In this document: positions 3,307 to 23,624 of the stretch, piece by piece | Layout of the letters: each line of letters starts with the position of its first letter | Numbering within the stretch: position 1 is the first letter of the stretch | NCBI RefSeq assembly: GCF_018069705.1 | Contig: NZ_CP072943.1 | Location: 2,859,668-2,923,667, forward strand | DNA length: 64,000 nt | Direction of reading: 5' to 3' | Source: Aminithiophilus ramosus | GTDB taxonomy: Bacteria; Synergistota; Synergistia; Synergistales; Aminithiophilaceae | The notes under the pieces: model-generated | Told to the model about the DNA's origin: nothing | Database searches by the model: none | The model's input: only the letters and a program-made list of their open reading frames with translations | Translations under genes and position numbers: made by a program

Positions 3307-3405
3307 ATGAACGACGCCGTCAAGGGCATCGTCAAAGTCGTGCTCAAAGCGCTCCTGCAGTTCATCGTAAGCCGCGTCATCACACGCTTCCTCGACGCGC
3401 TCTAG
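3307..3405 (+). CDS. possible 32-residue amphipathic peptide
   Basis: A short ATG-to-TAG ORF encoding MNDAVKGIVKVV at its start and a lysine/arginine-spaced hydrophobic pattern throughout, consistent with one amphipathic helix with a net positive charge. A purine-rich ribosome site (GAAGAAGGTGGG) lies about 6 bases upstream, partly inside a hairpin. It sits alone in a 390-base gap behind ilvD. I do not recognise a family. It could be a small membrane-active or leader peptide, or chance. Confidence 0.35.
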   Translation: MNDAVKGIVKVVLKALLQFIVSRVITRFLDAL

Positions 3406-3451
3406 CGGCGGTCGGAAGGGGTCCCGCTCCGGCGGGGCCGTGCCGCCGACA

Positions 3452-3478
3452 AACCCCGGGGGCTGCAGCCCCCGGGCG
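3452..3478. terminator. GC-rich palindrome between convergent genes
   Basis: A near-perfect palindrome centred on CTGCAG in the space between the rightward small ORF and the leftward cupin gene. A second GC-rich inverted repeat follows at about 3480-3523. Either could end transcription from both sides. No T-run is present, so confidence is modest. Confidence 0.4.
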
Positions 3479-3529
3479 ACCGGTCTTCCCGGTCCGGTCT
3501 CGTCCGCCGGACCGGGGAGACAGGCCCCG

Positions 3530-3904
3530 TCAGAGCTTTCCCTCGTCGAAGGGATCGCCCTTTTTGGGCACCATGCAGATGAACTTCAGGTCTCCCGTCC
3601 CCACGTTTTCGAAGACGTGCTCCACGCCGGGCGGGACATAGGCCCAGCAGCCGCCTTCGAGCTCGCAGGTCCGGCCGTCGATGGTCCCCTTCACCTGCCC
3701 CTCGAGGATGAGGATGTAGTGGGGCCAGTCGTGGCTGTGGAAGGGCGTCCGGCTGCCCGATCGGGTCGTGAAAAACCGGACGACATAGTCGTCCCAGAAG
3801 CGGCCCGGTCCGAAGACGACGCGCTTCGTCGTCCCCTCCATCTCGGGCGTGGCGATGACGGGCAGGTCTTCCAGCCGACCTCCCTTTTCCCGTTCCTTAT
3901 CCAT
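3530..3904 (-). CDS. small cupin-domain protein
   Basis: 124 residues forming a single cupin barrel. The first metal-binding motif appears as PFHSHDWPHY (about 54-63), with histidines followed by an aromatic replacement of the usual glutamate region. The second is seen as the conserved VPPGVEHVFENVG (about 90-102). Single-domain cupins bind a metal or small acid and include isomerases, dioxygenases and sugar-acid lyases, so the reaction cannot be assigned. An AGGGGGGAT ribosome site lies 6 bases before the ATG. It is followed by no co-directional gene nearby and appears to be a single-gene unit. Confidence 0.8.
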   Translation of the reverse strand: MDKEREKGGRLEDLPVIATPEMEGTTKRVVFGPGRFWDDYVVRFFTTRSGSRTPFHSHDWPHYILILEGQVKGTIDGRTCELEGGCWAYVPPGVEHVFENVGTGDLKFICMVPKKGDPFDEGKL

Positions 3905-4087
3905 CTCGATCCCCCCTGGTTCTTCTGTCGTGCTTTTTCCCGTTCCCTTTCTCAGGTTCGTTCTCTGGGCCGATGGCTCCCCCTGTCGGCCTCCCTCGCG
4001 GAAGAGGGCGAGCCGCGCCGGGAGCCGCGAGGGGGAAAAGACCGCCTCCGGACGTCGGGACGGTTCGCCGGACCGGCCGGTCCGAAG

Positions 4088-4122
4088 GGCTGAGCCCCGG
4101 CCTGCGGTCGGGGCTCAGCCGA
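4088..4122 (-). terminator. hairpin terminator of ywbE
   Basis: A 12-base inverted repeat (GGCTGAGCCCCG and its complement) with a 9-base loop. One arm overlaps the ywbE stop codon, so transcription of this minus-strand gene probably ends here. Confidence 0.6.
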
Positions 4123-4318
4123 GGATCTCCTTCACCCGACCGACGAGACCCCCTTCGAGCCTCACCTTGATGCCGTGAGGGTGGGTGGGACTTTTGGTGA
4201 GCAGGTCTCTGACGACGCCCTCCGTGAGGCGCCCCGTGGCCTGGTCGGCCTTCTGGACGACGCGGACTCTCAGGCCGGGGCGGACATGGGCCCTGATCGT
4301 TCCCTCCAGCGTTCTCAC
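4115..4318 (-). CDS. ywbE: YwbE family protein (DUF2196)
   Basis: 67 residues, the normal size for this small conserved family. It shows the family pattern: G-T-I-R-A-x-V-x-P-G-L near the start, then KSPTHPHGIKVRLE (about 42-55) and a final GRVK. The function is unknown; it is probably a small beta-barrel, perhaps nucleic-acid binding, found in many bacteria as a single gene. The start has a GGGAGGTG ribosome site just before the ATG. A TATACT box on the minus strand at 4363-4368 is a possible promoter -10, without an obvious -35. Confidence 0.85.
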   Translation of the reverse strand: MRTLEGTIRAHVRPGLRVRVVQKADQATGRLTEGVVRDLLTKSPTHPHGIKVRLEGGLVGRVKEILG

Positions 4319-6211: not shown

Positions 6212-7822
6212 GTGCAGATCGACGCCCTCACCTATCGCTATCCCTCGCGGCGGAACGTCGTCTTCGCCTCGCGGGGCATGGTGGCCACGAGCCATCCCCT
6301 GGCGGCCCAGGCCGGACTGGAGATTCTGAAAAAGGGGGGCAACGCCGTCGACGCCGCCCTGGCCACGGCCGCCGCCCTGACCGTCGTCGAGCCCACGTCG
6401 AACGGCCTGGGCGGAGACGCCTTCGCCCTCGTCTGGCACGAGGGACGCCTCGAGGGCCTCAACGGAAGCGGTCCCGCTCCGTCGGGCCTCGACGCCGGGC
6501 CCTTCCGGGCCGGAGGGCTGAAGGCCCTGCCCGCCTACGGCTGGCCGGCCGTCACCGTCCCCGGCCTTCCGGCGACGTGGGGGGCCCTCTCGAAACGCTA
6601 CGGCCGCCTCTCCCTCAAGGAGGTCCTGGCCCCGGCCGCGGCCTGCGCCGAGGAGGGCCATCCCGTGGCGCCCAACGTGGCCCGCCTCTGGCACAGGGCG
6701 GCCTCCCTCTTCGGCACGAACCTCAGGGGAGATCTCTTCCGCCCCTGGTTCGAGACCTTCTGTCCCGGCGGCAGGCCGCCACGGCCGGGCGAGCTCTTTC
6801 GCAACCCCGATCAGGCCCGGACCCTGGCCGCCCTGGCCGAGACGAAGGGACGGGATTTCTACGAGGGGGAGCTGGCCCGGCGGATCGTCGCCTTCGCCGA
6901 GGCGACGGGAGGCTACCTGAAGCCGGGCGATCTGGCCGCCTTCGAGCCCCAGTGGGTCGAACCCCTGGGCGTCGACTATCGGGGCTACAGGGTCTGGGAG
7001 ATCCCTCCCAACGGCCAGGGCCTCGTCGTCCTCATGGCCCTCAAGATCCTCGAGGGCTTCGAGTTCGCCCACCGCGACGACCCGCGGACCTTCCATCTCC
7101 AGCTGGAGGCGATGAAGCTGGCCTTCGCCGACGGGGCCCGCCACATCGCCGACAGGCGTTTCGCCGACGTCCCCGTCGAGGAGCTCCTCGGCGACGCCCA
7201 CGCCGCCAGGCGGCGGGCCCTCGTCGCCGAGGACGAGGCCCGTCCCCCTCGGGCCGACCTGACCGACCAGGGAGGAACGGTCTACCTGGCCGCCGCCGAC
7301 GGCGAGGGGATGATGGTCTCCTACATCCAGAGCAACTTCTGGGGCTTCGGCTCGGGCCTCGTCGTCCCCGGAACGGGAGTGGCCCTCCACAACCGGGGAC
7401 TGGGATTCAGCCTCGAAAAGGACCACCCCAACGTCCTCGAGCCGGGCAAACGTCCCTACCACACCATCATCCCCGGATTCCTGACCTGCCGAGGCGAGGC
7501 CGTCGGCCCCTTCGGCGTCATGGGCGCCTTCATGCAGCCTCAGGGCCACGTCCAGGTCGTCATGAACAGCGTCGACTTCGGCCTCAACCCCCAGGAGGCC
7601 CTCGACGCCCCCCGCTGGCAGTGGACGTCGGGCAAGACCGTCGAAGTCGAGCCGGGCTTTCCCCATCCGGCGGCCCTCGATCTGGCCCGGCGCGGCCACG
7701 ACGTGAGGCAGGCCCTGGAATCGACCTCTTTCGGGCGGGGGCAGATCATCTGGCGCAGCGACGAGGGAAGCCTCGCCGGAGGGACGGAGCCGAGGGCCGA
7801 CGGCACCATCGCCGCCTGGTAG
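6212..7822 (+). CDS. gamma-glutamyltransferase-like Ntn hydrolase (YwrD type)
   Basis: 536 residues from the GTG at 6212, which follows AAGGAGG by 8 bases; an in-frame ATG at 6170 lacks a ribosome site. The family is made as one chain that cuts itself before a threonine, which becomes the nucleophile. Here that residue is Thr356 in DQGGTVYLAAAD. The N-terminal GNAVDAALA and GLGGDAFALV, and the later SYIQSNFWGFGSGLVVPGTG, match the YwrD branch rather than classic periplasmic Ggt. No signal peptide is seen, so the enzyme is probably cytoplasmic. It would hydrolyse gamma-glutamyl or related amides. A strong shared terminator follows. Confidence 0.88.
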   Translation: MQIDALTYRYPSRRNVVFASRGMVATSHPLAAQAGLEILKKGGNAVDAALATAAALTVVEPTSNGLGGDAFALVWHEGRLEGLNGSGPAPSGLDAGPFRAGGLKALPAYGWPAVTVPGLPATWGALSKRYGRLSLKEVLAPAAACAEEGHPVAPNVARLWHRAASLFGTNLRGDLFRPWFETFCPGGRPPRPGELFRNPDQARTLAALAETKGRDFYEGELARRIVAFAEATGGYLKPGDLAAFEPQWVEPLGVDYRGYRVWEIPPNGQGLVVLMALKILEGFEFAHRDDPRTFHLQLEAMKLAFADGARHIADRRFADVPVEELLGDAHAARRRALVAEDEARPPRADLTDQGGTVYLAAADGEGMMVSYIQSNFWGFGSGLVVPGTGVALHNRGLGFSLEKDHPNVLEPGKRPYHTIIPGFLTCRGEAVGPFGVMGAFMQPQGHVQVVMNSVDFGLNPQEALDAPRWQWTSGKTVEVEPGFPHPAALDLARRGHDVRQALESTSFGRGQIIWRSDEGSLAGGTEPRADGTIAAW

Positions 7823-16776: not shown

Positions 16777-18063
16777 TCAACCCCTGCGGAAAAGCTCGAC
16801 GAGCCCCATACTCGTGGCCGGCACGAAGGTCAGAAGGAGAAGGCAGGCCACCATGGCCAGGACGAAGGGAACGATGTCCCGCGAGATCCCCTCGATCGAC
16901 TCGTCGGAGATGGCCGAGGCCACGAAGAGGTTGATCCCGTAGGGCGGCGTGATGAAGCCCACGGCCAGGTTGACGGTGATGATGAGGCCGAACTGGACGG
17001 GATCGATGCCGAGCTGGGTCACGACGGGCAGAAGGATCGGCGTGAGGATGATGACGGCGGCAATGTTGTCGACGAAGCAGCCGATGATGAGGAGAAAGGC
17101 GTTGATGATGAGGAGCGTCACCACCGGACTGGAAGAGATCCCCATGAGCCAGGCCCCCATCTTGGCGGGGATCTGGGCCATGGAGAGGTAGGCGGCGAAG
17201 GCCATGGACAGGCCGATCATGAACGAGGTGGCCCCGTTGACGAGGACCGAATCCTTCAGGGCCTCGTAGAGGGTGCGGAAGTCGAGCTCGCGGTAGACGA
17301 AGCGGCCGATGAGGACCGAGTAGACGACGGCCACGACGGCCGCCTCTGTGGGCGTGAAGACGCCGCCGTAGATGCCCCCGAGGATGATGAAGGGGACGAT
17401 GAGGGCCCAGATGGCCTCCCGGAAGGCCCGGACCACCTTGGCCAGCGACGGCCTTTCGGCGGAGCTCAGGTAGTGCCGTTTCCTGGCGACGAGGAAGCAG
17501 ACCGCCATCAGAGAAAGGCCGATGAGGATACCGGGGACGATGCCGGCTATGAAAAGCTCGCCGACGGAGGTTCCCGAGACGACGGCGTAGATGACGAAGG
17601 GAATCGACGGCGGGATGATGACGCCGATCGTCCCCGACGCGGCCGTGACGGCCGCCGCGAAGGAGCCGTGATAGCCGCGCTCCCTCATGGCGGGAATCAT
17701 GAAGGAGCCGATGGCCGAGACCGTCGCCGGCCCCGATCCGGAGATGGCCGCGAAGAACATGCAGGCCAGGACGGTCACCATGGCCAGGCCGCCGACGATG
17801 AAGCCGACGAGGGCGTCGGCCAGGGCCACGAGCCTCTTGGAGATGCCGCCGTAGCTCATGAGCGCCCCGGCAAGGATGAAGAAGGGAATGGCCAGGAGGG
17901 GGAAGGAGTCGAGGGCCGAAAAGGACTTCTGGGCCACGATGACGAGGGGGATCCGCGTCGTCAGGGCCAGGGAGATGGCCGTGGCGATCCCCAGGGTGAT
18001 GCCGATGGGAATCGACAGGGCGATGAGGATGATGAGAAGGCCGAACAGGATGAGGGCTTCCAC
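16777..18063 (-). CDS. TRAP transporter large permease (DctM)
   Basis: 428 residues, about 12 membrane segments, with the usual motifs SGSGPATVSAIG, GVIIPPSIPFVIYA and GFITPPYGINLFVASA. This is the ion-coupled translocation subunit of the second TRAP system. It ends the operon that starts with the 2-hydroxyacid dehydrogenase gene at 22432, and follows the DctQ gene by 2 bases. Confidence 0.95.
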   Translation of the reverse strand: MEALILFGLLIILIALSIPIGITLGIATAISLALTTRIPLVIVAQKSFSALDSFPLLAIPFFILAGALMSYGGISKRLVALADALVGFIVGGLAMVTVLACMFFAAISGSGPATVSAIGSFMIPAMRERGYHGSFAAAVTAASGTIGVIIPPSIPFVIYAVVSGTSVGELFIAGIVPGILIGLSLMAVCFLVARKRHYLSSAERPSLAKVVRAFREAIWALIVPFIILGGIYGGVFTPTEAAVVAVVYSVLIGRFVYRELDFRTLYEALKDSVLVNGATSFMIGLSMAFAAYLSMAQIPAKMGAWLMGISSSPVVTLLIINAFLLIIGCFVDNIAAVIILTPILLPVVTQLGIDPVQFGLIITVNLAVGFITPPYGINLFVASAISDESIEGISRDIVPFVLAMVACLLLLTFVPATSMGLVELFRRG

Positions 18064-18065
18064 GG

Positions 18066-18542
18066 CTAAACCGCCTCCTCTTCGAGACGCCTGAGGACGA
18101 GCCGGACCTCGCCGACGAGCCTCAAGGCCATCATGGCGCAGCCGACGGGCACGGAGGCATAGGCCCAGGAGATGGGGATCCTCATGGCCGCGCTGAGCTG
18201 CCCCGTCCTGACGAGGAAGAGGGTCATCCGGCTGCCCTGGTAGGCGAGGAAGAGGCTGAAGGCGAACCAGACGACGAGGACGAACAGCTCGAAACGGACC
18301 CGGTTCCTGCCCCGGAACCGGTCGGCCACCATCTCGACCCGGAGGTGGCGGCGCTGCCTCACGGCGTAGCTCGCCCCGAGCCAGGTCTGCCAGAGGAAGA
18401 TGTAGCGGGCCAGCTCTTCGCTCCAGGAGAGGGAGTTGTGGAAGACGTAGCGCATCACCACCTGGAAGAAGACGAGGAGGACGTTGAAGGCCATGCTCCC
18501 CACGAGAAGATACTCTTCGGCGTCATTGATTTTTTTCCACAT
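18066..18542 (-). CDS. TRAP transporter small permease (DctQ)
   Basis: 158 residues with four membrane segments, the usual DctQ layout. Typical features are VMRYVFHNSLSWSEELARY (about 29-47) and LGASYAVRQRRHLRVEM. The ATG at 18542 follows AAAGAGG. It lies between the binding-protein gene and the DctM gene, with a hairpin separating it from the binding-protein gene. Confidence 0.92.
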   Translation of the reverse strand: MWKKINDAEEYLLVGSMAFNVLLVFFQVVMRYVFHNSLSWSEELARYIFLWQTWLGASYAVRQRRHLRVEMVADRFRGRNRVRFELFVLVVWFAFSLFLAYQGSRMTLFLVRTGQLSAAMRIPISWAYASVPVGCAMMALRLVGEVRLVLRRLEEEAV

Positions 18543-18618: not shown

Positions 18619-19623
18619 CTACTCGCTGGCCACCTTCTTGGCCATGTCGACGAGCTCGTCGCCGATTTCGCCGCGGAACCGGTCATAGACGGGCAGGGTG
18701 GCCTCGACGAAGAGGGATTTCTCTCCGTCGGTCAGCTCGTTGATCTCCATGCCCGTCGCTTTGAGGGCCTCGAGGAACTCCTTCTCCTGAACGTCGGCCA
18801 TCTTCCTCTGTTCGAGGCAGTAGTGCCGGGCGGCGTCTTCGACGATCTTCCTCAGATCGTCGGGAAGGCCGTCGAGGAAGGCCTTGTTGGTCACCAGCAT
18901 GGTGGCGCTGAAGACATGTCCCGTCAGGGAGTAGAACTTCTGGACCTCGAAGAACTTGGAGGTGTAGACGAGGACGACGGGGTTCTCCTGGGCGTCGACG
19001 ATCCCCTGCTGAAGGGCCGTGTAGAGCTCGCCGAAGTTCATGGGCGTCGGGTTCGCCCCGAGAAGGCTGAAGAAGGCCATGTGGAGGGGGTTCTCCATGG
19101 TCCGCAGCTTGAGACCCTTAAGGTCTTCGGGGCTGTGGATGGGTCTGCGGCTGTTGGTGATGTGGCGGAAGCCGTTCTCGGCGTAGCCCAGGTTGACCAT
19201 CCCCTTGGGGGGCAGGAGCTCGTTCAGCTTGAGCCCCAGCTCGCCGTCGAGAACCTGGAAGGCCTTCTCCTTGGACTTGAAGAGGAAGGGCAGGTCGAAG
19301 ACCTGGAAGCGCTTCTCGAAACCGGCGATGGCCGACGTGGCGGGGATGGCCATCTCCAGAGTGCCGAGCTGGACCGATTCGATCAGCTCCCGGTCGCCGC
19401 CGAGCTGGGCGTTGGGGTAGAGCTCGACGGCGATCTGTCCCTTCGAGAGTTCCTCGACGTCCTTCTTGAAGACGTCGCGCATGATGATGTGGTCGGACTG
19501 GGTCTCGGGCAGGATGTAGCCGACCTTGAGGATGTACTTGGCCCCGGCGGCGGCGGGCATGGCGGCGACGGCGATGAAGGCGGTCACGAGAAGCAGGCTG
19601 ACGAGAAGTCTCTTGCTGCGCAT
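18619..19623 (-). CDS. TRAP transporter substrate-binding protein (DctP)
   Basis: 334 residues. The signal peptide covers about 1-26 (MRSKRLLVSLLL, then AAMPAAAGA). The mature part has the DctP pattern: KVGYILPETQSDH, ELYPNAQLGGDRELIESVQLG, and NFGELYTALQQGIVDAQENP with the region that orders the carboxylate-binding arginine before it. It binds an organic acid in the periplasm for the DctQM pair downstream. The start at 19623 has a GGGAGG site. The AcnX genes upstream suggest the cargo is a hydroxylated acid or a hydroxyproline-type compound. Confidence 0.93.
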   Translation of the reverse strand: MRSKRLLVSLLLVTAFIAVAAMPAAAGAKYILKVGYILPETQSDHIIMRDVFKKDVEELSKGQIAVELYPNAQLGGDRELIESVQLGTLEMAIPATSAIAGFEKRFQVFDLPFLFKSKEKAFQVLDGELGLKLNELLPPKGMVNLGYAENGFRHITNSRRPIHSPEDLKGLKLRTMENPLHMAFFSLLGANPTPMNFGELYTALQQGIVDAQENPVVLVYTSKFFEVQKFYSLTGHVFSATMLVTNKAFLDGLPDDLRKIVEDAARHYCLEQRKMADVQEKEFLEALKATGMEINELTDGEKSLFVEATLPVYDRFRGEIGDELVDMAKKVASE

Positions 19624-19761: not shown

Positions 19762-20184
19762 TCAGGAGGACTTGCGGACGACGATCTCCTCCCTGTCGGC
19801 GTCGACGCGGACCCAGTCGCCGTCGGCGATGGCCTCGAAAGGATCGACCTCCATGCGGTCCACCATGGGCTCGTCGACGACGACAGAGGACGAGACCAGG
19901 ACGGGCTCCGTGTCGGCGACGATGATGGCCTTGGGCAGAGTGCCCTTCACCGAAAGCTGGTAGAAGCCGTCGACCTGGACGACGGAGCTGCCCTTGCCCG
20001 ACTTGAGCACCAGGATCTTGCCGGCGATGCTCCTCCCCTGGAGGGGGTGGCCCTTCTCGATGACCGTCCCCGTCTCGGGATCGCAGAGGTAGAAGCACAT
20101 CGCCTCGGGCGAGACGATGGCCTCACCCTCGCCGCCGCCGGCGACGATGCGGCGACACCTGAAACGCCTCTCCACCGATTCCAT
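19762..20184 (-). CDS. aconitase X small subunit (AcnX swivel domain, DUF126)
   Basis: 140 residues, the usual size. It has the swivel-domain pattern: FRCRRIVAGGGEGEAIVS at the N-terminus and DPETGTVIEKGHPLQGRSIAGKIL (positions about 34-57) with the conserved G-x-S-x-A-G-K. The AcnX enzymes are dehydratases of the aconitase superfamily; bacterial two-subunit forms act on cis-3-hydroxy-L-proline, and archaeal ones on phosphomevalonate. It begins on the last base of the large-subunit stop (TGATG), so translation is coupled. Confidence 0.9.
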   Translation of the reverse strand: MESVERRFRCRRIVAGGGEGEAIVSPEAMCFYLCDPETGTVIEKGHPLQGRSIAGKILVLKSGKGSSVVQVDGFYQLSVKGTLPKAIIVADTEPVLVSSSVVVDEPMVDRMEVDPFEAIADGDWVRVDADREEIVVRKSS

Positions 20185-21404
20185 CACTGAACCTCTCCCT
20201 TCACGGCCGCCTCGACGCACTCCGCAAGACGGCGGACGACGAAGGGCTGGCCCCGGCGCTCCCGGTAGTACATGCACTTGGGCGAATCGGTGACGCCCAG
20301 CCCCCCCTCGAAACTCTTCCAGCAGGGCTCGTCGATGCAGGTATCGGGGACCAGACGGACTCCGGCCTCCTCGAGGCGACGGCGCTCGCCGGAGCGCTCG
20401 GCCAGTTCGAGGGCGTCGAAGGAGGTGAGGACCCAGAAGGCCACGCCGTCGCGGACCTTCCTGCCCCGCATGAGGACCTCCAGCTCGCGGATCTGGTCGT
20501 GGCTGTAGTGGGGACAGCCGAGCATGACGAGGTTGATCGGCCCCCCCTCTTCGGAGAGCTCCTCCTCCTTGGCCTTCAGGTCGGCCATAACGATCGGACG
20601 CGACGAGGCGGGGACGGGATTTCCGCCGAAGGCGGCCTCGAGCGTCGGCGCCTCGGGCGTGACGCCGACGATGTGGTACATGGCGACGGCGCCGCTGGTG
20701 TTCAGTTCCGCCCCGAGGTAGAGGAGGGCCTCCGGCGAGGGACGGCGCGGCATGTGGCGGAAGCGCAGGACGGGGACGGCGCTCCCGGCGAACTCGCCGA
20801 TGCACCAGCCCAGAAGGCCCCAGTCGTAGGGCTCCTCGGGCCAGAAATCGACGTCGACGAGCAGGGTACCCCGGCGGTTCTCCTCGAAGTGGAGGCCGTA
20901 GAGGGGCGTCTTGCCCGTCACGGCCGCAGCCAGGGCGCTCACCGAGGACTCCCGGCTCGACCGGGCCCCCAGGACGGAGTTGACGTAGGGCGTGGCGCTC
21001 GACTCGGAGAAGGCCACGTGCTCGCCGAAGGAGGGAACGTTTCCGGCCAGCTCGGGCGTGCAGCAGAAGGTGAGCCTGGCCCCGATCCGGCGGTAGACGT
21101 CGATCGTCCTCAAAGCCAGATCGAGCTCGGCCTGGCTCACGCCGTAATGGTTCGTCAGGTTTCGGACGTCCCAGCAGGGGTTCGTCGTCGGCGTCACCCT
21201 GCAGACGGCGCCGCCGTTCACGAGGAGCTCGCACCAGTAGGTGTCCCCCTCCTGACCGCTGAGGGCGACGTGGGCCCGGGAGACGTCGATCATGCGCTCG
21301 GCGTCGAAGGCCTTGCCCAGGGCGACCTGGAGCTCCATCGCCTTCTGGACGCCCGGCCCGCAGGAACCGTCGAGCATTCGTTTTTCATCGTCGCTGAGAA
21401 TCAT
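20184..21404 (-). CDS. aconitase X large subunit (AcnX catalytic domain, DUF521)
   Basis: 406 residues. It holds the catalytic part of the enzyme with conserved cysteines that bind an iron-sulfur cluster. C77 is in NPCWD, C114-C115 in LTFCCTPE, and C297 in LGCPHYS. Other family signatures are FSESSATPYVNSVLGARSSR and the C-terminal DSPKCMYY. With the small subunit it forms a hydro-lyase; cis-3-hydroxy-L-proline is the best-known bacterial substrate, but this operon has no proline-specific enzyme to confirm it. The ATG has a perfect AAGGAGG site. Confidence 0.92.
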   Translation of the reverse strand: MILSDDEKRMLDGSCGPGVQKAMELQVALGKAFDAERMIDVSRAHVALSGQEGDTYWCELLVNGGAVCRVTPTTNPCWDVRNLTNHYGVSQAELDLALRTIDVYRRIGARLTFCCTPELAGNVPSFGEHVAFSESSATPYVNSVLGARSSRESSVSALAAAVTGKTPLYGLHFEENRRGTLLVDVDFWPEEPYDWGLLGWCIGEFAGSAVPVLRFRHMPRRPSPEALLYLGAELNTSGAVAMYHIVGVTPEAPTLEAAFGGNPVPASSRPIVMADLKAKEEELSEEGGPINLVMLGCPHYSHDQIRELEVLMRGRKVRDGVAFWVLTSFDALELAERSGERRRLEEAGVRLVPDTCIDEPCWKSFEGGLGVTDSPKCMYYRERRGQPFVVRRLAECVEAAVKGEVQ

Positions 21405-21457: not shown

Positions 21458-22432
21458 TCACTTCGAATCGACGCGATCCCGGACGGGCCGTCCCTGAAGG
21501 ACGTCGATGACGTTCTCCGTCGCCCGCCGCCTCAACTCGCCGAAGGACTGTTCGGAAAGGTAGGAGATGTGGGGCGTCACCAGGATCGGGGGACAGTGGA
21601 AGACGGGATCGGAAAGGCAGGGCGGCTCGCGGCGGACGACGTCCAGAGAGGCCCCGGCCAGACGGCCTCCGTTCACGGCGTCGACGAGGGCCTCCTCGTC
21701 GACGATGGCGCCCCGGGCCGTGTTGATGACGTAGGCCGTCGGCTTCATCAGGGCGAGGGCGGCGCCGTCGATCATCCCCTCCGTCTCGGCCGTCAGCTTG
21801 GCGTTGACGCTGAGAAAATCGGCCTGGCGGAACCCCTCCTCCCAGGCGACGGGAAGAACGCCGAGCGACTCGAAACGGGAGGGCTCCACGTAAGGATCGA
21901 AGGCCAGAACGTCCATGCCCAGGGCCTTGGCCTTGCGGGCCACGGTGCCGCCGATGCGCCCCAGACCGACGACGAAGAGGGTCGACCCGGCGATGCGCCT
22001 CACGGGATCCTTCACGGCCGGAGCCCCCCAGAGTCCCGCCTCCAGGGCCGGACCGTAGGCGGTGATCTTTTTGTTGGCGTGGTAGATGGAGGCGATCACG
22101 TGGTCCGAAACGTCCTCGACGCAGTAGCCGGGGACGAAGGTGACCTCGATCCCCCTCTCGCGGGCCGCCCGGTAATCGACGCGGTCGTAGCCGCCGCCGA
22201 AGACGGAGAGGATCCGGCAGCGGTCGAGGCGCTCGATCGTCTCCCGGGGCATGTCGACGTACACCTGACAGAGAATCCCCTCGGCCTCGGAGCCGAAGGC
22301 GTCGAGATCGGCCCCGTAGTCGTTGCCCGAGAAGCGAAGGTCGCAGCCGGGAAAGGCCTTTTCGAGAAGGGCCTTTTCGACGTCGTAATCGGGCCACTCT
22401 TCGTCGATGATCCAGATCAAGGGTTTGCTCAT
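21458..22432 (-). CDS. D-isomer-specific 2-hydroxyacid dehydrogenase
   Basis: 324 residues. The NAD-binding loop is GLGRIGG (156-162). The conserved INTARGAIVDEEALVDAV carries the catalytic arginine, and PHISYLS the catalytic histidine. It interconverts a 2-hydroxy acid and a 2-keto acid using NAD(H). As the first structural gene of the operon, ahead of AcnX and TRAP genes, it may reduce or oxidise the product of the dehydratase. The start at 22432 follows GGGAGGA; the in-frame extension upstream runs through the operator and is not used. Confidence 0.9.
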   Translation of the reverse strand: MSKPLIWIIDEEWPDYDVEKALLEKAFPGCDLRFSGNDYGADLDAFGSEAEGILCQVYVDMPRETIERLDRCRILSVFGGGYDRVDYRAARERGIEVTFVPGYCVEDVSDHVIASIYHANKKITAYGPALEAGLWGAPAVKDPVRRIAGSTLFVVGLGRIGGTVARKAKALGMDVLAFDPYVEPSRFESLGVLPVAWEEGFRQADFLSVNAKLTAETEGMIDGAALALMKPTAYVINTARGAIVDEEALVDAVNGGRLAGASLDVVRREPPCLSDPVFHCPPILVTPHISYLSEQSFGELRRRATENVIDVLQGRPVRDRVDSK

Positions 22433-22484
22433 CGCGATGCGTCCTCCCATCGTCCTGGCGTCGCCGCACAGGGGATACTTTTGA

Positions 22485-22502
22485 AATACTGCCGGTATAC
22501 CG
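22485..22502 (-). promoter_or_regulatory. putative GntR/FCD operator in front of the TRAP-AcnX operon
   Basis: Contains a 10-bp palindrome (CGGTATACCG, 22493-22502), the kind of GTATAC core bound by FCD-type GntR repressors. On the plus strand the site reads AATACTGCCGGTATAC, matching 12 of 16 positions of a site that overlaps the gntR promoter (23205-23220). It lies about 55 bases before the dehydrogenase start, so it could control the structural genes. Confidence 0.6.
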
Positions 22503-22519
22503 ACGGAGCGCAAAAAAAT

Positions 22520-23179
22520 TTAGGGCTTGAGGTACCGTTCGAAGATGTAGCGTTCGCTCTGGCGGATGTGCCGCGTCAGAAGCTCGTGGAGGACCTCCTC
22601 GTCGCGGTTGCGGAGGGCCTCCAGAATCTCCAGGTGCTGGCCGACGCTGTTGCGGGCGTCGGCCAGGGAACGGGCCGAGAGAAGCTGAAAGCGCTGGATC
22701 TGACTGAAAAAGGTCTCCAGGATCTGGCGCAGTCTGCCGTTGGCCGTCCTGGCGACGATGAGGGAATGAAACCTGCCGTCGAGATCGTTCAGCTCTCCCC
22801 AGGGCGCCGTCTCTCCCGCCTCGATCTTTTCCAGCAGGGCCTTCCAGCCCGCCTGAAGTTCGTCGATCTCCCCTTCGGTGATCCGGTGAACGGCCGAACG
22901 GGCCGCCAGAGGCTCCAGGTGGACGCGGATCTCGTAGATCTCCTTCACGTCCTCCAGGGAGATTTCGGCGACGAAGGCCCCCTTCCCCGGGACGAGGCGG
23001 ACGAAGCCCTCCCGTTCGAGCTGACGCAGGACCTCCCGGACGGGCGTCCGGCTGATGTCGAGCTCCTGGGCCAGGCGGTTTTCGCTGAGAGGCTCCCCCT
23101 CGTGGAAGCGGTTTTTCAAAATGGCCTCTTTGATCCATTCGTAGGCCTTGACGGAAAGGCGGGGGTCTTTTTTCTGCAT
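22520..23179 (-). CDS. GntR-family regulator with FCD domain
   Basis: 219 residues. A winged helix-turn-helix (about 9-76, with RLAQELDISRTPVREVLRQL) is followed by an all-helical FCD ligand domain with its acidic and histidine metal site. These proteins repress catabolic genes until a carboxylic acid ligand binds. The gene is directly upstream of the dehydrogenase-AcnX-TRAP operon on the same strand. Two similar sequence motifs lie at its own promoter and before the operon, so it probably controls both. The MQKK start has GAGGAGG upstream; a longer frame starting at 23263 would overlap the promoter. Confidence 0.88.
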   Translation of the reverse strand: MQKKDPRLSVKAYEWIKEAILKNRFHEGEPLSENRLAQELDISRTPVREVLRQLEREGFVRLVPGKGAFVAEISLEDVKEIYEIRVHLEPLAARSAVHRITEGEIDELQAGWKALLEKIEAGETAPWGELNDLDGRFHSLIVARTANGRLRQILETFFSQIQRFQLLSARSLADARNSVGQHLEILEALRNRDEEVLHELLTRHIRQSERYIFERYLKP

Positions 23180-23204
23180 CGAAACGGAAGGCCTCCTCGG
23201 CTTG

Positions 23205-23242
23205 AATACTGACAAAATACACTCTGGATTCTGATCTGTCAA
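23205..23242 (-). promoter_or_regulatory. gntR promoter with overlapping operator
   Basis: Minus-strand -35 TTGACA (23237-23242), 17-base spacer, -10 TATTTT (23214-23219). The motif AATACTGACAAAATAC (plus strand, 23205-23220) covers the -10 and resembles the operator at 22485-22500, which suggests autoregulation. Confidence 0.65.
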
Positions 23243-23624
23243 TCTTGAGCGCCTTTCAGACAACGGTCCGATCCGATGACAGGAAAGAGGACCGACAGCA
23301 AACGCCTCGGGAGGCGACGGGAATACCCCTCGGAAGCCCTCTGTCGTCGGCTCCCGGCCAAAGGGAGACCTTCCCGGCGGAGCCGACTCGTGCCTGCCAT
23401 GCCGATGACGGGAAAGCCCCTTGGGACCGACAGACTCCCGGAAGAGAAAGGAGTCCCTCCGCCGGAAGTTCCTCCCGTCTCCGCCCCCCGGGAGAGAGTC
23501 GGAACGGAAAAAGAGCCGCCTCGAGGCCGGCTCTTTTTCCGCGATTCTTTCACCCTTTCCGCCCCTCCGGGCTCTGAAAGGGCCTCGAAGACCTCCGGTA
23601 AGGAGGAGAGGAAACCGTTCCGCG
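23243..23624. other. gap between gntR promoter and patB
   Basis: About 380 bases with no credible gene. It holds the patB terminator at 23506-23540 and otherwise GC-rich non-coding sequence. The open frames that cross it lack ribosome sites. Confidence 0.6.
23506..23540. terminator. rho-independent terminator of patB
   Basis: A 13-bp stem (23506-23518 with 23528-23540), with A5 on one side and T5 on the other, so it works in either direction. It follows the minus-strand patB stop by about 85 bases. Confidence 0.85.

Follow-up and report, generated by a model that had tools for sequence, protein, structure and literature searches.

Gene content of the locus and architecture of the two sites

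The window (the whole 64,000-nucleotide stretch of DNA that we analyzed) contains a series of genes on the minus strand, whose families we assigned with Pfam and NCBIfam. The series begins with gntR (22520..23179), which encodes an FCD-type GntR regulator of 219 aa. This is followed by the first structural gene, for a D-2-hydroxyacid dehydrogenase family protein (Pfam 2-Hacid_dh and 2-Hacid_dh_C; 21458..22432), by the aconitase X large subunit (Pfam AcnX; 20184..21404) and swivel, or small, subunit (Pfam AcnX_swivel_put; 19762..20184), and by TRAP transporter genes that run to 16777. The TRAP genes, identified by family search, encode the solute-binding protein DctP (18619..19623) and the small permease DctQ (18066..18542), both with start codons picked from the ORF, and the large permease DctM (16777..18063). 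The regulator scored above both Pfam cut-offs, with 65.3 bits for the GntR helix-turn-helix (HTH) domain (PF00392, cut-off 27) and 93.4 bits for FCD (PF07729, cut-off 24.3), and belongs to the FadR/FCD group. Residues D134, H138, H182, and H204, which we take to be the Asp and three His ligands of the FCD metal site, were invariant in all seven aligned regulators; this conservation would suit an organic acid effector. Between a PatB-like gene and gntR, at about 23508-23538, lies an inverted repeat, aaaaagagccgcctcgaggccggctcttttt, that has tails of A and T and looks like a two-way terminator. A run of T (22512-22518) occurs close behind the gntR stop and just ahead of the downstream operator described below, as it does in L053, L057, L068, L074, and L075 (L and G mark our labels for loci and genomes).

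Two matching 16-mers, AATACTGCCGGTATAC at 22485-22500 and AATACTGACAAAATAC at 23205-23220, frame gntR and, compared directly, are identical at 12 of their 16 positions. The initial annotation placed one on the gntR -10 and the other ahead of the first structural gene, without assigning a coordinate to either role, and both placements held: the 23205 site is the gntR site, and the 22485 site falls past the gntR stop (22520) and ahead of the dehydrogenase start (22432). With up to one mismatch allowed, the 16-mer pattern occurred at only these two places in the genome (one contig of 3,108,337 bases) and the reversed pattern nowhere, so the many random matches in coding DNA that the annotation had named as evidence against the motif were not found. 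The pattern was derived from the two sites themselves, and its presence in the window is thus no test.

Each site is better described as part of a longer row of three GTAT-containing units on the minus strand. At gntR, unit 1 (GAATCCAGAGT, with one mismatch to GTAT; 23221..23231) lies in the promoter spacer, unit 2 (GTATTTTGTCA; 23210..23220) includes the -10 TATTTT at 23219-23214, and unit 3 (GTATTCAAGCC; 23199..23209) lies around the expected transcription start; in the alignment, this row reads GAATCCAGAGT GTATTTTGTCA GTATTCAA. Ahead of the structural genes, unit 1 (GTATACCGGCA; 22490..22500) holds a GTATAC palindrome, unit 2 (GTATTTCAAAA; 22479..22489) contains a possible -10, TATTTC, and unit 3 (GTATCCCCTGT; 22468..22478) has a GTATCCC also found in L053 and L054, with the aligned row reading GTATACCGGCA GTATTTCAAAA GTATCCCC. 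An ATAC-N5-GTAT dyad, without strand (22486..22498), overlaps units 1 and 2 of this second row. The originally marked 23205-23220 corresponds to unit 2 and part of unit 3, and 22485-22500 to unit 1 and part of unit 2. The 16-mer therefore covers two of three units and pairs gntR units 2-3 with downstream units 1-2, and it did not survive as a description of the regulator's site. As an operator, the 16-mer AATACTGnCnnnATAC was ruled out, since what the orthologues retain instead is GTAT units spaced by 11 bp. GTATAC was likewise ruled out as a common core of the window pair; it occurs at the 22485 site alone, the gntR site having none, and it is therefore not what the two sites share. Elsewhere, GTATAC is found as unit 2 in the IlvD-linked clade and as unit 1 of several downstream rows.

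The longer patterns were also rare in this genome. GTATN7GTATN7GTAT with up to one mismatch occurred at four places in 3.1 Mb (reversed control, 0). The only exact copy is the downstream site, and the gntR site is one of the other three, along with positions 730028 and 1896460. The dyad also occurred at four places: beside the downstream site, these were 7303 (intergenic), 1657223 (within an ORF), and 2778448 (within an ORF on one strand and just past an ORF on the other). Position 7303 (L049, ~1501-1513) has ATACTCTTAGTAT ahead of a gene for an NMT1_3/TAXI-type solute receptor. As this sequence was absent from the three other genomes searched, we do not claim a wider regulon. Across the phylum, the exact triple repeat had matches in 32 of 185 genomes and lay at the gntR locus in five (G000, G001, G012, G032, and G121); the reversed control was similar in size, and most of the remaining matches appear to be due to chance. 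In G032, GTATTTTGTCAGTAT, with letters as in the window, also occurs at a second place (L091), between genes without a visible link.

Conservation among orthologous regulators

Orthologues of the regulator, defined by E <= 1e-40, were found in 26 of 185 Synergistota genomes, and three further AcnX-linked ones were added. After near-duplicates were dropped, 25 orthologues remained, giving 50 flanking regions (200 bases upstream of gntR and 250 bases past its stop); these regions are non-independent, as the orthologues are related. Upstream of gntR, 17 of the 25 had the dyad at 7 or more of 8 bases, against a mean of 1.87 and a maximum of 7 over 300 dinucleotide shuffles; the other eight lacked it at this threshold. 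Downstream, the dyad was present in 12 of 25 (shuffle mean 1.43, maximum 6), including 11 of the 15 in which gntR is followed by a dehydrogenase or AcnX gene; L060, L061, L070, and L073 were the four without it. The twelfth case, L065, is followed by neither gene and is probably chance. Conservation before orthologous operons, which the initial annotation had asked for, was thus observed at the same two places, the gntR promoter and the region before the dehydrogenase or AcnX genes.

The spacing of GTAT units was more regular still. Of the 50 regions, 20 had coding-strand GTAT pairs 11 bp apart (200 shuffles: mean 0.11, maximum 2) and seven had pairs 22 bp apart (mean 0.19, maximum 2), and no other spacing between 4 and 33 bp was found in more than two regions. 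This spectrum is the clearest result of our sequence analysis. What the orthologues have in common is a series of GTAT units at 11-bp intervals, in most cases overlapping an ATAC-N5-GTAT dyad. Examples are the row of L054 (GTATACAGGCA GTATGGTGCGA GTATCCCG) and the upstream rows of L053 (GTATCCAAGTG GTATTTTTCTG GTATCCAG, with GTATCCAAGTG aligned to unit 1 of the window gntR site) and L068 (GTATATCGATG GTATTCTGATG GTATTCTA); unit 3 is missing at some orthologue sites. An exact GTATN7GTAT pair was present in 14 of 25 orthologues upstream and 6 of 25 downstream. In contrast, this pair and the dyad at 7/8 were both missing, on either side, from all 18 FCD paralogue loci, which came from four same-genus genomes.

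The same comparison bears on whether the row is needed at all. In the tree, L074, L075, L076, L023, L011, and L004 stand apart from the 22 other rows, including the window (100/100); L011 and L023 are long branches, and L021 was left out as a copy of L073. The dyad seen in the window is common to this more distant clade, in which L074, L075, L023, and L004 have the dyad alone (TAATACnnnnnGTATTA-like), without a direct repeat, which leaves room for more than one recognized geometry. The operator could consist only of the ATAC-N5-GTAT inverted repeat, bound by one GntR dimer, with the third unit and the 11-bp phasing as by-products or weak accessory boxes, a reading we regard as plausible but somewhat less than even. 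The dyad-only sites of L074, L075, and L023 speak for it. So do the weaker extra half-sites that Suvorova et al. (PMC4494728), in the excerpted text, describe at a distance of 7-12 nt from palindromic sites of the GntR family, in each of the three subfamilies studied; their role is left open there, and they resemble the additional units of the window. However, the window gntR site has the dyad at 7/8 only, the IlvD-linked L055, L056, and L063 have GTATN7GTAT with no dyad at 7/8, and GTAT pairs at 22 bp are enriched as well as those at 11 bp. The dyad is probably the shared ancestral element, with the phased row having developed in the other clade.

Close relatives and diverged members illustrate how the sites vary. 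Strain L-13 (Synergistota bacterium, CP074691), whose AcnX is 100% identical to that of the window over the best segment, has a single difference from the window in 151 bases at the gntR promoter, which falls in unit 1 and spares its GTAT letters, and none in 87 bases at the second site. L070, L073, and L021 form a long branch with a diverged HTH region, and between gntR and AcnX they have TTTTGCATGCAA (a GCATGC element) instead of the GTAT row. This is possibly a changed operator, as one might expect if the site shifted with its regulator.

Sites in rearranged and decayed loci

Judging by the loci compared, the site stays with its regulator when the gene order changes. In L016, gntR is followed by a dihydroxyacid-dehydratase-type gene and is divergent from a lactate-racemase-like gene that is followed by AcnX and TRAP genes. 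One site lies at the gntR promoter, and the second, which reads GTATGTAGTCT GTATACATGCA on the strand of gntR, precedes the racemase-like gene of the AcnX operon. It is ~40-65 bp before the start we chose for that gene; the mechanical ORF starts earlier, at TTG, and with that start the site would overlap it. A lactate-racemase-like gene precedes AcnX in L013, L016, and L017, and the regulator heads an IlvD/EDD-type dehydratase there (families checked on L016 only). These neighbors suggest a 2-hydroxyacid or sugar-acid pathway rather than hydroxyproline.

This tracking also bears on which protein binds. Binding by the adjacent GntR is a prediction, and a search with this GntR gave a total of 21 matches in the genome, so the array could be bound by a different regulator. 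We consider this improbable, since the array tracks the GntR clade across dehydrogenase-, AcnX-, and IlvD-linked loci and divergent LarA-linked loci.

The same-genus genome G003 (L110, G003:C15, ~3400-4300) has a gntR 3' remnant and a broken dehydrogenase beside a biotin-type cluster, as in the window, and no AcnX match was present in that genome. In its downstream row, unit 1 is kept as GTATAT and unit 2 as GGATTC, and unit 3 is gone. The locus is consistent with decay and is no evidence of binding.

Promoter overlap and spacer geometry

The gntR row coincides with a strong predicted promoter. A -35 hexamer, TTGACA (23237..23242, minus strand), lies 17 bp from the -10 TATTTT at 23219-23214, and this was the only sigma-70-like match in 22400-23320 (shuffle mean 0.0). 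Among dehydrogenase-linked orthologues, TTGAC[ACT] lies exactly 17 bp before unit 2, with TATNNT as the -10, in seven of eight (the window, L053, L057, L059, L061, L062, and L068; the exception is L060). With the operator covering its own promoter at 17-bp spacing, autorepression is the natural reading.

The two sites might resemble each other only as promoters do, through -10 hexamers and A+T-rich flanks, and unit 2 is indeed the -10 at gntR. We judge this explanation highly improbable, as the hexamers take in neither unit 1 nor unit 3, the 11- and 22-bp spacing is no promoter feature, none of the 18 paralogue loci has the element at its promoter, and the sites are unique genome-wide.

The geometry at the downstream operator was different. 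The scan of 22400-23320 gave no promoter-like match over this operator in the window. A possible -35 of the structural operon, TTGCGC (22508..22513, minus strand), is weak (3/6) and lies 19 bp from the possible -10 at 22483-22488; orthologues have a stronger hexamer here, such as TTGACT in L068. Among 11 downstream regions, -35-like hexamers lay 19 bp before unit 2 in four, 20 bp in three, and 17 bp in none, and base-shuffled segments reached 7 of 11 for some pair of neighboring spacings in 0.0005 of trials. The 17-bp spacing was found in 10 of 21 upstream regions and the 19-20-bp spacing in 7 of 11 downstream regions (shuffle P <= 0.0005), in a post hoc test on related sequences with weak -35 hexamers in several, including the window. 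The loci concerned in the long downstream spacer are the window, L053, L054, L057, L062, L068, L074, and L023. The apparently long spacer of the structural promoter is a lead compatible with dual control. FCD binding could act in two modes set by spacer length, repressing gntR at 17 bp and activating the structural operon at 19-20 bp by twisting the overlong spacer, in a MerR-like manner; we think this doubtful. If true, the same phased three-unit operator would serve two promoter geometries, with the mode set by spacer length alone.

A predicted operator for the adjacent regulator

The features directly seen are that the two sites are present and unique in the genome, that they are conserved along with orthologous regulators and missing from paralogue loci, and that they overlap promoter hexamers. 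We consider it very probable that both sites are operators of the adjacent FCD-type GntR, acting as a local, autoregulated repressor on phased half-sites. The initial annotation had also predicted an autoregulated local repressor. The local FCD regulator, conserved sites at its own promoter and before the structural genes, and paralogues without them bear out most of that prediction; repression itself we infer from the -10 overlap.

In the mechanism we propose, each operator would be made up of three GTAT units that point the same way and follow one another at exactly one helical turn (11 bp). The gntR row would cover the spacer, -10, and start region of TTGACA-17-TATTTT and block RNA polymerase; since the middle unit is the -10 hexamer, binding should switch gntR off. 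The second row, between gntR and the dehydrogenase-AcnX-TRAP genes, may act by blocking a promoter located there or by halting transcription that reads through from gntR. The proposed effector is a small organic acid, either imported by TRAP or derived from the imported compound, whose binding to the FCD domain would free the DNA. Binding, the direction of regulation, cooperativity, and the effector are all what we infer from the features above. The arrangement is ordinary in kind with an unusually regular repeat, and the long downstream spacer is the one surprising lead. It gives a Synergistota FCD regulator a testable predicted operator, tied to a conserved AcnX/2-hydroxyacid dehydrogenase/TRAP operon, and a compound that releases the DNA would offer a route to the operon's substrate.

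Comparison with known systems

The initial annotation called GTATAC typical of FCD regulators. This agrees with the palindromic FadR-subfamily consensus NyGTM-N0-1-KACNy in the excerpted text of PMC4494728, which GTATAC fits at the 22485 site but which has no counterpart at the 23205 site. In the same text, the GT-N2-AC group of the subfamily contains GntR, HpxS, HypR, MdcY, PrpR, and UxuR, and Synergistota do not appear in the table of taxa analyzed (PMC4494728). Like that group, the window combines a GntR HTH and FCD protein, a local operon, and GTATAC (GT-AT-AC) at its downstream site; unlike it, the window has a gntR site without GTATAC and three units at a strict 11-bp period.

Repeated half-sites are known from NanR of E. 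coli. According to the excerpted text of PMC8012715, three NanR dimers bind (GGTATA)3 cooperatively, with one domain on consensus and one on adjacent non-consensus DNA, and the cooperativity needs a 32-residue N-terminal extension. The window regulator is similarly an FCD GntR with a threefold, same-direction, GTAT-containing repeat at its predicted operators. In contrast to NanR, it lacks the N-terminal extension and its repeat period differs, that of NanR being shorter than 11 bp. It scored 62 bits against the NCBIfam NanR model NF003011 (cut-off 260), and its residue 7 aligns with NanR residue 31, leaving few residues before the HTH and no room for the ~32-residue extension. By sequence, the window GntR is like NanR at most in using repeats and is not a NanR. 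The strict 11-bp repeat raises the question of how FCD dimers would sit on same-direction half-sites without that extension.

HypR of Streptomyces coelicolor, also of the FadR subfamily, controls hydroxyproline genes and binds its own promoter (PMC6608401, excerpted text). The window likewise pairs an FCD regulator with a catabolic operon, but HypR recognizes TACAATGTCAC-like sites instead, and an AcnX/TRAP arrangement was not seen in the excerpted text of PMC6608401. In the open-license literature, we found no account of such an operator or of an AcnX-linked GntR, an absence that is weak at that scope.

The window AcnX scored 231.6 bits against the LhpI model, below its cut-off of 700. Its large subunit is closest in sequence to the Thermococcus and Agrobacterium enzymes, with 7cnr and 7d2r/7cnp/7cnq as the best solved relatives. 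In the alignment, it retains a Cys opposite each of Thermococcus Cys110, Cys283, and Cys342; relative to the Agrobacterium enzyme, it has Cys at the Ser449 position and no Cys at the Cys510 position. The iron-sulfur cysteines of this two-gene (large plus swivel) form thus follow the Thermococcus pattern.
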